64,000 nucleotides of DNA, taken from assembly GCA_036500345.1 (NCBI GenBank), contig DASYCE010000006.1, forward strand, positions 1 to 64,000. Reading direction: 5' to 3'. Each line of letters opens with the position of its first letter. The stretch's first letter is position 1. The notes under the pieces are model-generated. The model saw nothing but the letters and a program-made list of their open reading frames with translations. It did no database searches and was not told the origin of the DNA. Below are positions 5,798 to 21,763 of this stretch, in pieces. The stretch comes from Gemmatimonadales bacterium. GTDB lineage: Bacteria; Gemmatimonadota; Gemmatimonadetes; Gemmatimonadales; GWC2-71-9. The position numbers were made by a program, and so were the translations under genes.

Positions 5798-6046
5798 ATG
5801 CGCTCACGTGAACGGATCCTCGGCAACCTCGAACAGATCTACAAAGAGTCGTTCGACCACGCCCGCACGGTCGGCGCCACCGACCGGATGTTCGACCTCG
5901 ACAACGCTTACATGCGCGACCAGCTGATGCTGGAGATCCTTCTTGATATCCGGGACCTCTTTGCAGTTGCCCCCGCCGCGCCGGCCGACTCCGGGAAAAG
6001 CGCGCTGCAGCAGCTGCAGGCGCTCAAGCGGCTCGCGGGGAAGTAG
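5798..6046 (+). CDS. Small helical protein of unknown function
   Basis: An 82-residue cytoplasmic protein from ATG 5798; the longer frame from 5711 runs through the promoter region and is rejected. It is predicted almost entirely helical, with an acidic first half, the segment LMLEILLDIRDLF, an Ala/Pro linker and a Leu/Gln-rich tail. No signal peptide or catalytic motif is visible. It sits immediately before the MBLAC1-like hydrolase, whose coding frame begins within about 20 nt of this stop, so the pair is probably one operon. I do not recognise the family. Confidence 0.6.
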   Translation: MRSRERILGNLEQIYKESFDHARTVGATDRMFDLDNAYMRDQLMLEILLDIRDLFAVAPAAPADSGKSALQQLQALKRLAGK

Positions 6047-6053
6047 CCAAGCC

Positions 6054-6058
6054 GAGGA
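6054..6058 (+). promoter_or_regulatory. Shine-Dalgarno GAGGA supporting a non-AUG start
   Basis: GAGGA lies 6 nt before ATC 6065 and 9 nt before CTG 6068. It is the main sequence argument that translation of the MBLAC1-like gene begins there rather than at GTG 6146. Confidence 0.5.
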
Positions 6059-6067
6059 CCAGGCATC

Positions 6068-6661
6068 CTGCCCAACATCGTCGACGTTCTCCTCACCGGC
6101 TGGGTCCGCGAGACCGCTCCCGGCCGCTTCGACACCGGGGCCACCGTGACACTGATCCGCGGCCAGGTGAACATCCTCGTCGACACCGGCGATACGTCGC
6201 AGCACGCGGCACTCCTCGAGGCGCTGCACCAGCGCGATCTCGCGCCGGAGCTGATCGCGTTTGTCGTCAACACCCACGGCCACCTCGACCACGTTGGCTG
6301 CAACGCCCTCTTTCCGCACGCGACCTTCATTCTCGACGACGACATCGCCCGCGACGGTGAATACCACTCGCACTCCTTTGCCGACGCGCCATTTCTGCTG
6401 CCTGCAGATCCCGACGCGTCGATCACCGTGATCGCCACGCCCGGCCACACCGATCACGACCGCAGCGTCCTCGTCACGACTCCCGGCGGCGTGATCGCCA
6501 TTGTCGGTGACCTCTTCGAATGCGCCAACGACGACACGCCCGACGTCTGGAGCCGCTGGTCACACGACGCCGAACGTCAACGCCGGAGCCGCGCGATGGT
6601 TCGCGGCATCGCTGACCATATTGTCCCCGGGCATGGAGCGATCTTCCCGGTACGATCGTGA
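6068..6661 (+). CDS. MBLAC1-like metallo-beta-lactamase-fold hydrolase, apparent non-AUG start
   Basis: Metallo-hydrolase resembling human MBLAC1. Numbered from CTG 6068, metal ligands are H70, H72, D74 and H75 (THGHLDH), H127 (PGHTDHD), D148 and H189 (VPGHG). The only canonical start, GTG 6146, would delete the first beta-strand (VDVLLTGW...TVTLIRG), which the family has and which is open and well-coded here. Upstream of 6146 there is no ATG, GTG or TTG back to the stop at 6044. CTG 6068 or ATC 6065 is preceded by GAGGA at 6054-6058 with 9 or 6 nt spacing. So initiation at CTG/ATC, or a miscalled base in an ATG, is likely. The substrate is unknown. Confidence 0.85.
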   Translation: MPNIVDVLLTGWVRETAPGRFDTGATVTLIRGQVNILVDTGDTSQHAALLEALHQRDLAPELIAFVVNTHGHLDHVGCNALFPHATFILDDDIARDGEYHSHSFADAPFLLPADPDASITVIATPGHTDHDRSVLVTTPGGVIAIVGDLFECANDDTPDVWSRWSHDAERQRRSRAMVRGIADHIVPGHGAIFPVRS

Positions 6662-6785: not shown

Positions 6786-7991
6786 ATGTCCGGCCGGTCG
6801 CTCGGTTTCGCCCTCGCGCTTGTCGCGGTCGCGGTGCCGCAACTCCTACAGGCGCAGGGGAAGATCGACCTCCCCGTGCCGCTCTCCACGCTCGAAAAGC
6901 AGGTCAAGGCCGACTCCAACGATCCGGCCGCGCACTACAACGTGGCGCTGGGTTACTGGAACGCGAAGAAGTGGCCCGACGTCGATCGCGAACTGCACGC
7001 TGCCGTCGCCCTCGACCCACGCTTTGCCGCTGCGCATCTCGCGCTGGCGTATCTCCCGTTCGCGCGCGACCGGCACATGCTCGACGGAATCACCCGCATC
7101 GACGCCCAGACCCCGAAGTCGATTCGCGATGCCATCGACCAGAAAACCCGCGAATTCCGCCACGCCTTCCTGATCGATCCGATGGTCGACATGCGGATCA
7201 TGGCGGCCAACGACATCTCGGTCGATTACTGGACGATGCACGACGCCTTCGGGCAGAGTGATGCCGCGCTCATCGAGGGGCTCACCGATTGCGAGGAAGG
7301 GCACTACGCCGATTGCGAGACCAACCTCGATGTCTACATCAAGGCGTACGGCAACAACGCCAGGATCCAAGCTGACGTACCGGAGCAGGTTCTCTGGTTT
7401 GACGGGCTCGCCGCGGCGCACCAGAAGAATTACGCCAGCGCGATCGCGCAATTCCAGCAATTGATCGTGCGCGACTCGATCGCCGCCGCGAAGGCCGAAA
7501 AGAAGGACGTGATCCACTTTCCGATCCGGTCGAACGAGTATCGCTACTTCGTGGGAGTGCTCCAGGCCGATGCCGGCAACGGCGACGCCGCGATTGCCAC
7601 GCTGCACGACGCGCTCGAGCACGATCTCTCGCTCTACATCGCCCACGTTCGTCTCGCCGAGATCTACGAGAGCCGCAAGGATTTCGACCACGCGGTCGAA
7701 GAACGACGCAACGCCGTCAACGCCAACCCCGACGATCCCACGCTCAATGTCGATCTCGGCGTGACGCTCGGGCGTGCCGGCCGTTTTGCCGAAGCGGGCG
7801 ACGCGCTCAAGACCGCCGTGCAGGTGCTCCCGCGCGATCCCGACGCCTGGTACTGGTACGGGATCGCGATGCAGCAGCTCGGCCGGACCGATGAAGCCCG
7901 GAAGGCGTTCGGTGAGGTCGTGGCGGTGGCGCCGAGCCGGATGGCGCAGCGCGCCGAACAGGCGAGGCAGCATCTGGCGGCGCTGAAGTGA
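6786..7991 (+). CDS. Exported tetratricopeptide-repeat protein
   Basis: A 401-residue secreted or periplasmic TPR protein. ATG 6786 follows an AAGGAGA Shine-Dalgarno and opens a signal peptide ending in LLQAQG. The mature protein has helical repeats throughout; the clearest TPR units are at both ends, near residues 35-80 (AHYNVALGYWNAKKWPDVDREL) and across the last 120 residues. These probably form a protein-interaction scaffold. The stop overlaps the GTG start of the S41 protease by 4 bp, so the two are coupled; the TPR protein may be an adaptor or regulator of that protease, as NlpI is for Prc. That partnership is inference from adjacency. Confidence 0.85.
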   Translation: MSGRSLGFALALVAVAVPQLLQAQGKIDLPVPLSTLEKQVKADSNDPAAHYNVALGYWNAKKWPDVDRELHAAVALDPRFAAAHLALAYLPFARDRHMLDGITRIDAQTPKSIRDAIDQKTREFRHAFLIDPMVDMRIMAANDISVDYWTMHDAFGQSDAALIEGLTDCEEGHYADCETNLDVYIKAYGNNARIQADVPEQVLWFDGLAAAHQKNYASAIAQFQQLIVRDSIAAAKAEKKDVIHFPIRSNEYRYFVGVLQADAGNGDAAIATLHDALEHDLSLYIAHVRLAEIYESRKDFDHAVEERRNAVNANPDDPTLNVDLGVTLGRAGRFAEAGDALKTAVQVLPRDPDAWYWYGIAMQQLGRTDEARKAFGEVVAVAPSRMAQRAEQARQHLAALK

Positions 7992-9608: not shown

Positions 9609-11726
9609 ATGGCCACCCGTACCCAGGCGCGCTCGCGCTCAGCGATCCGGCTCGAAAAGACCGAGCTCCTCGATCTCTACCGGCTGATGCTCCTCTCCCG
9701 CCGGCTCGACGACAAGGAAGTCCAGCTCAAGCGGCAGAATCGCATCTTCTTCCAGATCTCCAGCGCCGGCCACGAAGCGGTGACCGCCGCCGCCTCCAGG
9801 ATCTTCCGCCCCGGCCACGACTGGTTCTACCTCTACTATCGCGATCGCGCCCTCTGCCTCGGTCTCGGCATGACGGCGACCGAGCAGCTCCTCTCGGCGG
9901 TTGCCGCCGCCGATGATCCCAACTCCGGCGGCCGCCAGATGCCGTCGCACTGGGGGCACAAGGAACTCAACATCGTCAACGTGTCGAGTCCGACCGGGAC
10001 GCAGTTCCTCCAGGCGGTCGGCGCCGCCGAGATCGCGGTGCGCGCCCCGGCAAGCGACGCGACGCGCGACCTATCGGCGGGCGATGAAGTCGTGCTCTGC
10101 ACCGCGGGCGAAGGGACGACGAGCGAAGGCGAGTTCTGGGAATCGCTCAACACCGCCTGCAATCTCAAGCTGCCGATCGTCTATCTCATCGAGGACAACG
10201 GCTACGCGATCTCGGTCCCGGTGGAGGTGAACACCGCCGGCGGATCGATTTCGAAGCTGGTGCAGTCGTTCCCCAACCTCTTCATCCAGGAAGTCGACGG
10301 CTGCGATCCGGTCGCCTCGTACGACGTGATGCTCAAGGCGTTCGACCACGCCCGCACCCGCAAGGGGCCGGCGCTGGTGCACGCCAGGGTGATCCGCCCA
10401 TACTCGCATTCGCTGTCCGATGACGAAGTGGCGTACCGGCCGGCGTCCGAGCGCGAGGCCGACGCCGCGCGCGACCCGCTGCGCACCTATCCGGCCAAGT
10501 TGCTCGCTGACGGCATCGCCACCGAGGCGGAGCTGGAGCAGATCAGCAATGCGGTCAACGAGGAGATCGAGGTGGCGACGGGGATCGCACTCGCATCGCC
10601 GCAGCCGACCGCCGACACGATCTATCAGTATGTCTATTCTCCCGACGTCGATCCGACGGCGGAGCAGTTCGACACCGAGGACGACCCGCAGTCGACCGGC
10701 GAGCCGACCACGATGGTTGATCTCCTCAACACCTGCCTCAGGGACGAGATGGCGCGCGACCCGCGGATTCTCGTCTTCGGCCAGGACGTCGCCGACGCAT
10801 CGCGCGAGTCGAACCGCACGGCGGTGAAGGGGAAGGGCGGCGTCTTCAAGGTCACCTTCGGATTGCAGAACCAGTTCGGCGGGACGCGGGTATACAATTC
10901 GCCGCTCGCCGAGGCGAATATCATCGGCCGGGCGATCGGGCTCGCGACCCGCGGGATGAAGCCGGTCGTCGAGATCCAGTTCTTCGACTACATCTGGCCC
11001 GCCTACATGCAGCTCCGCAACGAGCTCGCGCTGCTCCGTTGGCGGAGCAACAACGCCAACGCAGCACCGGTGGTCGTACGTGTCACGTACGGCGGATACC
11101 TCAAGGGTGGCGCGGTGTATCACTCGCAGACCGGGGCGGCGATCTTTACCGGCGTGCCGGGGATCCGCGTCGTCTGTCCGTCGACGGCACTCGACGCCAA
11201 CGGACTGCTGCGCACCGCGATCCGCTGCGAGGACCCGGTCCTCTTCCTCGAGCACAAGCACCTCTACCGGCAGACATACAACAAGGGGAAGTACCCCGGA
11301 CCGAACTTCATGATCCCGTTCGGCAAGGCGCGGGTGGTGAAGGAGGGGCGCGATCTGACGGTGGTCACGTACGGCGCCGTGGTGCAGCGCGCATGGCAGG
11401 CCGCAAGGAATATCAAAGATGCCACGGGGCAGAGTGTCGAAGTGATCGACCTGCGGTCACTCAATCCGGTCGATTGGGACACGATCGCCGCGTCGGTGAA
11501 GAAGACCAGCCGCGTGATCGTGGCGTACGAGGATTCGCTGAGCTGGGGCTACGGCTCGGAGATCTCGGCGAAGATCGCGTCGGATCTGTTCGAGTATCTC
11601 GATGCGCCGGTCAAGCGCGTCGCGGCGACCGATACATTCGTGGCGTACGCGCCGGAGCTTGAGGATGTGATCCTGCCGCAGGTCGAAAGCCTCCAGGCCG
11701 CGATGGTCGAGGTTCTGAAATACTAG
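9609..11726 (+). CDS. Fused alpha/beta E1 component of a 2-oxoacid (probably branched-chain) dehydrogenase
   Basis: Thiamine-diphosphate enzyme that decarboxylates 2-oxoacids and loads the acyl group onto an E2 lipoyl domain. The 705-residue chain joins both E1 subunits. The alpha part (about 10-340) has the ThDP motif running from GEGTTSEG (167-174) to EDN (195-197). The beta part (about 368-705, starting [14 protein letters not shown]) has the GQDVA and transketolase-like C-terminal halves. An acidic linker near residues 350-367 connects them. Fused E1s of this layout occur in Bacteroidota and relatives. No E2 or E3 gene is in the window. Start ATG 9609 is preferred over 9501, which lies inside the S41 gene. 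Confidence 0.93.
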
Positions 11727-12160
11727 GCGAGGCGGAGAGACCAACCGACCACTTCTCCGAACCGTTCTCGCGGACGCTGCGTCGCACCATCGGACTCGCG
11801 ATCGCGATCGGCGCGATCATCGCGCTGGTCCACCGCCGTCTCGCACTCTTCCCGCTCGGCGTCGAGTTCGCCCTCTGGTTCACCCTCGGTGGCCATTTCG
11901 TCGAACTCGTCTGCCGAAATCAGCTTCGCCCGCTGATCAGCAATCGCATCGTCGGATTCGTCGTGCGCGTCGTCGCCTGGTTCATCGGTGGATCGTTGCT
12001 CTACGCCGGCGCGATGGCGACGCGCGCGCTCTTCTTCCACCATCATCCGTCGACGATGCCGTGGTGGATCGGCGGTGTGGCATTCATCGCCGGAGAACTC
12101 CTGATCCACCTCCTCCTGCTCGCCCGCGGCGAGCCGAGCGTCTACAACTCGCACGGGTGA
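11720..12160 (+). CDS. Integral membrane protein, start unclear (possible AUA start)
   Basis: The open frame from 11663 to 12160 contains no ATG, GTG or TTG before GTG 11963. Yet the 80 codons before 11963 have strongly G/C-biased third positions and encode a clear membrane segment ([15 protein letters not shown]) and a second one containing [14 protein letters not shown]. With the two helices after 11963 this gives a four-helix protein of about 146 residues. The best initiation point by eye is ATA 11720, 7 nt after GAGG (11709-11712), overlapping the E1 stop. GTG 11963 would keep only half the protein. Function is unknown. Confidence 0.6.
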
Positions 12161-20359: not shown

Positions 20360-20362
20360 ATC

Positions 20363-21763
20363 CTGATCCTCCGACGCTTTGTCGCCCTGCCGGCACTTCT
20401 GATCGCGAGCATGATCGCGCCGACCGTCGGGCGCGCCCAGGGCGCTCTACCCGCGACCCCCTTTTCGACATACCCAGCGCGTTTCGCGCACGCGTACGCC
20501 CAACTTGGAAACGGTCTGCTCATCATTCGCTCCCGCTGGGCGCCCGCGGGGTCGACCGACGCCGCATTCAATCAAGAGCCAAACTTCTTCTACTTCACCG
20601 GTGACGAGCGATCGCTTGCAGCGGTTCTCGTCCTCGACGGTGCGACACACCACGCAGAGTTGTTCCTTCCGGCTGATCTTCCACCAGACCTGCGCTTCTT
20701 TGCGCCAAAGCAGACAGCACCGACGGCGTTGTCGCCGAATGCCGTTCACGTCGACCACGTCTCCGAATGGAGCGACTTCCGGTCGTACATCGACAACCGT
20801 CTGTCGACCGACCCGCATCGGACGATCTTCGTCGACGACGGTGGCTCGGCGAACGACTTCGCGGGCGATCTGGGTACTCCGCTCGATTCGCTGGCGACCC
20901 TTGATAATCCGTGGCGCGCGTGGCGGCGCGCGATCCAGCAGAGGTGGCCGAACGCTGTCGTGCGCAGCGGTGGCACAATCCTCAGCGCTATCCGTGCGGT
21001 AAAGGATTCAGGCGAGATCGCGACACTGCGCCGCGTGGCTGCGACGAGCGCCGCGGCGCTCCTCGCGGCGTTACCTCGATTCTCGCCCGGGCGGCGTCAA
21101 CGCGAAGTGGAAGCGGCCGTTGTGGAAGCGTGCGTCCGAAACGCCGGCGGTGTGTCGTTCTGGCCGTGGGCGATGTCCGGCCCCAATTCCGCGTTTCCCA
21201 CCCCCTTCACGTCGTTCATCGACCCCGGGCACCTCGACCGTGTGATGCACGCCGGTGAGGTCGCGCGACTCGACATCGGCTGTCAGGTCGATCACTACCA
21301 GGGAGATGTCGGCCGGACGGTGCCGGTGTCTGGTGCCTTCACCGCCGGCCAGGCGGAAGTCATCGATCTCCTCGTCACGGCGTACCGGGCCGGGCTCGCC
21401 GCGCTGCGCCCCGGGGCGACCGCCGACGCCGTCATCCGCGCCAGCGTCGCCGCAGTCGCCCGTCGTCGGCCCGCGTTGCGCACGTCGCTTGGCCGAGACG
21501 CCGCGGCGGTGATCACTCGTCCCGACGGCATTCCGTTCTGGCAATTGCACGGCATCGGTCTCGATGCTGCCGAAGCATTGCCGGATACGCTGCGGGCGGG
21601 GATGACGGTGGATTACGAGCCGATCTTCGTGGTCGGCGGACAAGGGTTCTACATGGAGGACATGATCCTTGTCACGCCGACCGGGTTCGAGATTCTTACG
21701 ACGGGACTGCCAGACTCGGCCACCGAGATAGAACGCGCGATGCGGCCGCACGGATCACGCTAA
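20363..21763 (+). CDS. Exported M24-family metallopeptidase (Xaa-Pro aminopeptidase type), apparent CTG start
   Basis: About 466 residues. The C-terminal pita-bread domain has ligands of M24 enzymes: D in RLDIGCQVDHYQGD (two Asp), H in LHGIGLDAAE, E in VDYEPIF and E in FYMEDMILV. The N-terminal half is the creatinase-like domain. From CTG 20363 the protein begins LILRRFVALPALLIAS, a good signal peptide; the first canonical start, ATG 20411, cuts most of it off. There is no other ATG/GTG/TTG back to the kinase stop. So non-AUG initiation (CTG or ATC) or a sequence error is likely. The gene sits between two 50-bp diverged repeats derived from the kinase 3' end. Confidence 0.85.
   Translation: MILRRFVALPALLIASMIAPTVGRAQGALPATPFSTYPARFAHAYAQLGNGLLIIRSRWAPAGSTDAAFNQEPNFFYFTGDERSLAAVLVLDGATHHAELFLPADLPPDLRFFAPKQTAPTALSPNAVHVDHVSEWSDFRSYIDNRLSTDPHRTIFVDDGGSANDFAGDLGTPLDSLATLDNPWRAWRRAIQQRWPNAVVRSGGTILSAIRAVKDSGEIATLRRVAATSAAALLAALPRFSPGRRQREVEAAVVEACVRNAGGVSFWPWAMSGPNSAFPTPFTSFIDPGHLDRVMHAGEVARLDIGCQVDHYQGDVGRTVPVSGAFTAGQAEVIDLLVTAYRAGLAALRPGATADAVIRASVAAVARRRPALRTSLGRDAAAVITRPDGIPFWQLHGIGLDAAEALPDTLRAGMTVDYEPIFVVGGQGFYMEDMILVTPTGFEILTTGLPDSATEIERAMRPHGSR

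Follow-up and report, generated by a model that had tools for sequence, protein, structure and literature searches.

The window analyzed here, a stretch of 64,000 nucleotides from a Gemmatimonadales bacterium (assembly GCA_036500345.1, contig DASYCE010000006.1), carries a metallo-beta-lactamase (MBL)-fold hydrolase reading frame between the gene for a conserved 82-aa protein and a TPR-repeat protein gene. No canonical start codon (ATG, GTG or TTG) lies between the upstream stop of this frame and the conserved N-terminus of its product. The features of the locus are:

5798-6046, plus strand: gene for the conserved 82-aa protein, the upstream neighbor; homologous genes occur in 53 of 61 related genomes
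6044-6046, plus strand: TAG stop of the 82-aa gene, in frame with the hydrolase reading frame
6054-6058, plus strand: GAGGA, a weak Shine-Dalgarno (SD)-like match, whose GAGG has an aligned spacing of 7 to the ATC and 10 to the CTG
6065-6067, plus strand: ATC, second-choice candidate start codon, from sequence and orthologue alignment
6068-6070, plus strand: CTG, favored candidate start codon, from the orthologue alignment and the infC genes of the same family
6068-6661, plus strand: MBLAC1-type MBL-fold hydrolase, from PF00753, 4v0h and alignment
6146-6148, plus strand: GTG, first canonical start, coding for the residue that opens the fourth predicted strand, with a longest SD match of 2
6786-7991, plus strand: TPR-repeat protein gene, whose homologue in the same-genus genome G001 directly follows the 82-aa gene

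The reading frame (6047-6661) opens immediately after the TAG at 6044-6046. The initial annotation had described it as open and well coded from this stop to GTG 6146, and a dicodon model trained on 195 long reading frames from the window's own genome agrees, placing the coding boundary at 6062, three bases before ATC 6065. Its further claim, that no canonical start precedes the first beta-strand, is borne out in a stronger form, as none of the frames contains an ATG, GTG or TTG between 6044 and GTG 6146. A frameshift hiding the start was considered and rejected for this reason, since an insertion or deletion cannot bring a canonical codon into frame where no frame contains one. In the dicodon model the best canonical start costs 9.9 nats; the cost exceeds 6 nats in 5 of the 327 called genes of the same genome, and in 6 of 327 the nearest canonical start is at least 27 codons from the coding boundary. 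The missing nearby canonical start is thus unusual, but not unique.

The protein itself appears complete. Its Pfam match is Lactamase_B (PF00753), and the MBLAC1-like assignment first made from the letters alone is upheld by database searches, in which human MBLAC1 (4v0h) is the best PDB match both by sequence (E 9.7e-25) and by fold (Foldseek E 1.5e-15). The MBL fold is marked by the metal-ligand motifs HxHxDH, H, D and H, and these are intact in the hydrolase as HGHLDH, PGHTDHD, GDLFE and VPGHG (alignment A1), within 198 codons free of internal stops. From sequence and structural model, therefore, the frame encodes an intact, full-length MBLAC1-type hydrolase with putative enzymatic activity. 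An AlphaFold model built from five sequences (mean pLDDT 77.8) predicts strands at residues 5-10, 13-18 and 21-26 in ATC-started numbering, all of them N-terminal to residue 28, which corresponds to GTG 6146; likewise V8, L9, G12 and T27, invariant in all five aligned sequences, precede that codon. Model and alignment together bear out the earlier statement that the N-terminal strand lies entirely before GTG 6146. These observations bear directly on the simplest alternative, in which GTG 6146 is the true start and the protein is merely shortened. Although this is the first canonical codon, and the forced choice for any gene caller restricted to ATG, GTG and TTG, starting there would remove three predicted strands and four invariant residues, in addition to incurring the coding cost and poor SD match given above, and we consider it very unlikely.

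If translation begins upstream of GTG 6146, a ribosome-binding site might be expected to mark the start. The initial annotation had pointed to GAGGA as a matching SD for ATC 6065 and CTG 6068; the match is present, but it carries little evidential weight. The ribosome-binding site amounts to GAGG only, and since 863 of the 5669 codons lying near gene starts in the window's own genome (15%) have a 4-base match in front of them at workable spacing, it is weak evidence for a start. We sampled 605 genes, comprising 327 called in 460 kb of the same genome (window included) and 278 in 400 kb of a same-genus genome. In the first, such a match precedes 79 of 203 ATG and 29 of 124 GTG codons, as compared with 21 of 129 CTG (16%), 22 of 158 ATC (14%) and 5 of 58 ATT codons, values near or below the 15% base; in the second the corresponding figures are 17 of 153 for CTG and 19 of 129 for ATC, against a base of 13%. 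The 605-gene sample of these two genomes therefore shows no widespread use of CTG or ATC as starts. Among the 70 of 605 genes lacking a good canonical start, an SD match precedes CTG in 9 of 32 cases, compared with 140 of 907 codons overall (one-sided Fisher test versus other codons, p 0.045, uncorrected), a weak excess that we do not count as proof. No match to 16S rRNA, the source of the anti-SD sequence, was found in the genome assembly.

The alignment of orthologues that had been proposed as a check proved more informative. Four of 56 matched loci are close orthologues (164-194 bits, the next scoring 47), and the other 52 were omitted from the start comparison; L147 is the same reading frame as L032 and was counted once. 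The ATG codons of L032 and L034 share an alignment column with CTG 6068, the GTG of L031 falls one column later in the N-terminal alignment, and the fourth orthologue, L033, has no nearby canonical start. This last sequence (L033/L003, 1387-2085) comes from the window's own genus and has no canonical codon near its first strand, the closest being a TTG about 30 codons upstream; its row in alignment A1 is cut at 1483, a position chosen arbitrarily. Because CTG 6068 shares its column with the ATG of two orthologues, and CTG is also the apparent infC start in this lineage, the evidence leans toward CTG 6068 over ATC 6065, albeit from few sequences. The earlier proposal that ATC 6065 or CTG 6068 serves as the start thus holds as regards a non-canonical start, which is the best reading, with the evidence leaning to the CTG alone.

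The infC gene, encoding initiation factor IF3, which guards the choice of start codon, provides the strongest indication that CTG may be read as a start in this lineage. IF3 genes were located in 20/21 and 242/246 genomes, and the 5′ ends of infC were read at 36 loci of the window's family (f1), and at 20 and 4 loci of two sister families (f2 and f3). Within f1, 33 loci were read by motif and three (L216, L223 and L221) separately; infC went unread in G022, G031, G042, G061 and G068, and that of G003, which lies in two pieces, was not counted. At all 36 f1 loci, including L166 from the window's own genome (G000, contig C24), infC has an SD-proximal in-frame CTG as its apparent start. An SD match of at least 4 bases precedes this CTG at 31 of the 33 measured loci, compared with 0 of 33 in-gene controls, and the spacing is 10 at 9 of 33. 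At 13 of the 36 loci the stretch from the in-frame stop to the fourth codon ahead of the conserved R-V-N contains no ATG, GTG or TTG, and at these another codon must therefore serve as the start. Canonical codons do occur further up the frame at the remaining 23, including L166, where a TTG with a 3-base SD match lies 15 codons above the CTG; L233 and L236 each carry a GTG two codons above it, with SD matches of 3 and 4. Given the SD-proximal CTG throughout and the 13 loci lacking an alternative, CTG initiation is very probably real, and the sequences strongly suggest that it is used in the window's lineage.

The sister families differ in the codon found at this position, which is ATT (15), ATC (4) or ATA (1) at the 20 f2 loci and ATT at 4 of 4 in f3. 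An ATG also stands two codons upstream in three of the f2 loci (L243, L245 and L247), and two others, L184 and L241, carry a TTG higher in the frame; in other families 12 of 29 loci were readable by motif, and the codons there are mixed. According to PMC5472188, infC of E. coli starts with ATT and that of Streptomyces with ATC, subject to feedback by IF3. From the sequence comparison, f1 has apparently shifted this IF3 feedback codon to CUG, and we found no report of a CUG start of infC in the open-access literature searched. As a separate observation, infC is preceded on its own strand, at a distance of a few hundred bases, by a further MBL-fold match in eleven f1 genomes (G015:C34, G024:C67, G027:C2, G028:C63, G033:C13, G036:C8, G040:C12, G049:C66, G053:C44, G058:C65 and G072:C117).

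A second gene in the window shares the peculiarity of the hydrolase. The M24 peptidase gene (20360-21763) immediately follows the TAG that ends a kinase-TPR gene in the same frame, and it opens with ATC CTG; its first canonical codon is an ATG at codon 17, inside what appears by eye to be a signal peptide. A 4-base SD match precedes its CTG (20363) at an aligned spacing of 5. In the nearest relative, L088 (44% identical), a TTG occupies the point at which the signal peptide seems, again by eye, to begin. The initial annotation had drawn attention to the ATCCTG hexamer common to the two starts. The hexamer is indeed shared, but CTG alone suffices to explain both starts and the hexamer need not be a motif. 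Elsewhere in the window, a small membrane-protein-like gene (11663-12160) behind an E1 dehydrogenase gene, with its boundary near 11747, has no canonical start near those of its orthologues, and an ATA at 11720 carries a 5-base SD match at a spacing of 7. The reading frame L121:14016-14972 shows coding signal to just past an in-frame TGA and has its best canonical start only at codon 105; it may be a broken gene.

The M24 peptidase bears on two further alternatives. An assembly or base-call error might mask a canonical start at 6065-6070, as ATC and CTG are each one base from one and the assembly is a 32-contig draft, probably metagenome-derived. Nevertheless, the M24 peptidase gene lacks a canonical start too, and with CTG found in infC at 36 of 36 loci a CTG start needs no error, so that we regard this explanation as improbable. 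Alternatively, readthrough of TAG 6044-6046 could produce a fusion of the 82-aa protein and the hydrolase, the two genes being in the same frame, an arrangement repeated upstream of the M24 peptidase, where the kinase-TPR gene is also in frame and ends in TAG. However, in relatives the 82-aa protein has a gene to itself, which in those inspected carries its own stop, and TAG is an ordinary stop in this genome, ending 90 of its 327 called genes; moreover, the signal-peptide-like M24 N-terminus (by eye) fits a free N-terminus. Readthrough therefore appears scarcely credible.

The surroundings of the hydrolase gene suggest how it may have come to lack a canonical codon. In G001, of the same genus, the 82-aa gene is followed by the TPR gene, whose frame opens at an ATG overlapping the 82-aa stop, and then by an S41 protease gene; the hydrolase of G001 lies on a different contig from the 82-aa and TPR genes. 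In the window, the hydrolase stands between the two. The 82-aa protein has no Pfam or NCBIfam match. Of 10 same-genus genomes, 3 carry the hydrolase, the window's own among them, and in neither of the other two is it beside the 82-aa gene; across the phylum sample it is found in 4 of 395 genomes (E 1e-12). As the hydrolase is so rare, insertion between the 82-aa and TPR genes is simpler than loss at this site in G001, and from gene order it was probably inserted. Loss of the original start in the course of the insertion would account for the absent canonical codon, and the probable insertion therefore makes recent start loss a real rival to a non-canonical start. In that case the insertion would have carried the coding body without its start codon, giving a very young pseudogene with little or no translation. 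The gene order and scattered distribution described above are in keeping with this, as is the same-genus L033, likewise without a nearby canonical start, from which start decay within the genus is possible. Set against it are the stop-free 198 codons with their intact metal-ligand motifs, and a coding signal that starts at the expected start position. On balance we judge a gene that lost its start to be unlikely, while granting it more weight than base error, readthrough or a start at GTG 6146.

We therefore favor, with moderate confidence, the reading in which an intact MBLAC1-type hydrolase, probably inserted, has a non-canonical start codon, most probably CTG 6068, and low output. Under this model, insertion would have placed the gene between its 82-aa and TPR neighbors, and initiation would occur at CTG 6068 or, less probably, ATC 6065, with fMet-tRNA as the presumed initiator and some assistance from the weak SD. 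The yield would be low, judging from published efficiencies; initiation at CUG in E. coli reaches 0.86% of the AUG output, CUG accounts for 0.024% of bacterial start codons (PMC11497404), and a reporter study in chloroplasts and E. coli describes no detected initiation from this codon (PMC9845219). Translational coupling to, or reinitiation from, the 82-aa gene, which might have allowed a weak start to function, seems doubtful, because its stop lies 18 nt from the ATC and 21 nt from the CTG and, in PMC10666635, a stop-start gap of around 20 nt almost abolishes coupling. The same paper notes that with a gap of +14 nt coupling in E. coli varies by gene pair, and PMC12548453 describes a phage gene pair still coupled at +23 and +35 nt.

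The hydrolase start may in addition be sensitive to IF3. Extending this idea, the IF3 switch of f1 may have moved from AUU/AUC to CUG, such that IF3 governs infC together with a few CUG-started genes, including the hydrolase and the M24 peptidase. We offer this proposal tentatively and think it rather doubtful; if true, there would be a small IF3-responsive gene set that gene callers have missed or truncated. A family-wide CTG start of infC, if real, would itself show that a different rare codon can be built into the IF3 feedback switch, and would make f1 a natural system for asking which other genes IF3 represses. For the hydrolase, the practical consequence is that callers limited to ATG, GTG and TTG would drop its first three predicted strands.

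The protein resembles human MBLAC1 (4v0h) in its MBL fold, its metal-ligand motifs and its VVVLLQG-type N-terminal strand, and differs in being bacterial and shorter. Its predicted start, if IF3-controlled, would parallel the infC genes of E. coli and Streptomyces, in which a non-canonical start is under IF3 control; infC, however, encodes an essential, self-regulating factor, whereas no reason for feedback is known for the hydrolase. A closer comparison may be with Streptomyces sigR, whose GTC start is repressed by IF3, as demonstrated by experiment in PMC5472188. The start of the hydrolase, by comparison, is predicted from the sequence of a single species; even so, the two cases are alike in that a gene outside the initiation machinery would open at a codon other than ATG, GTG or TTG and have its start mis-set by gene callers.
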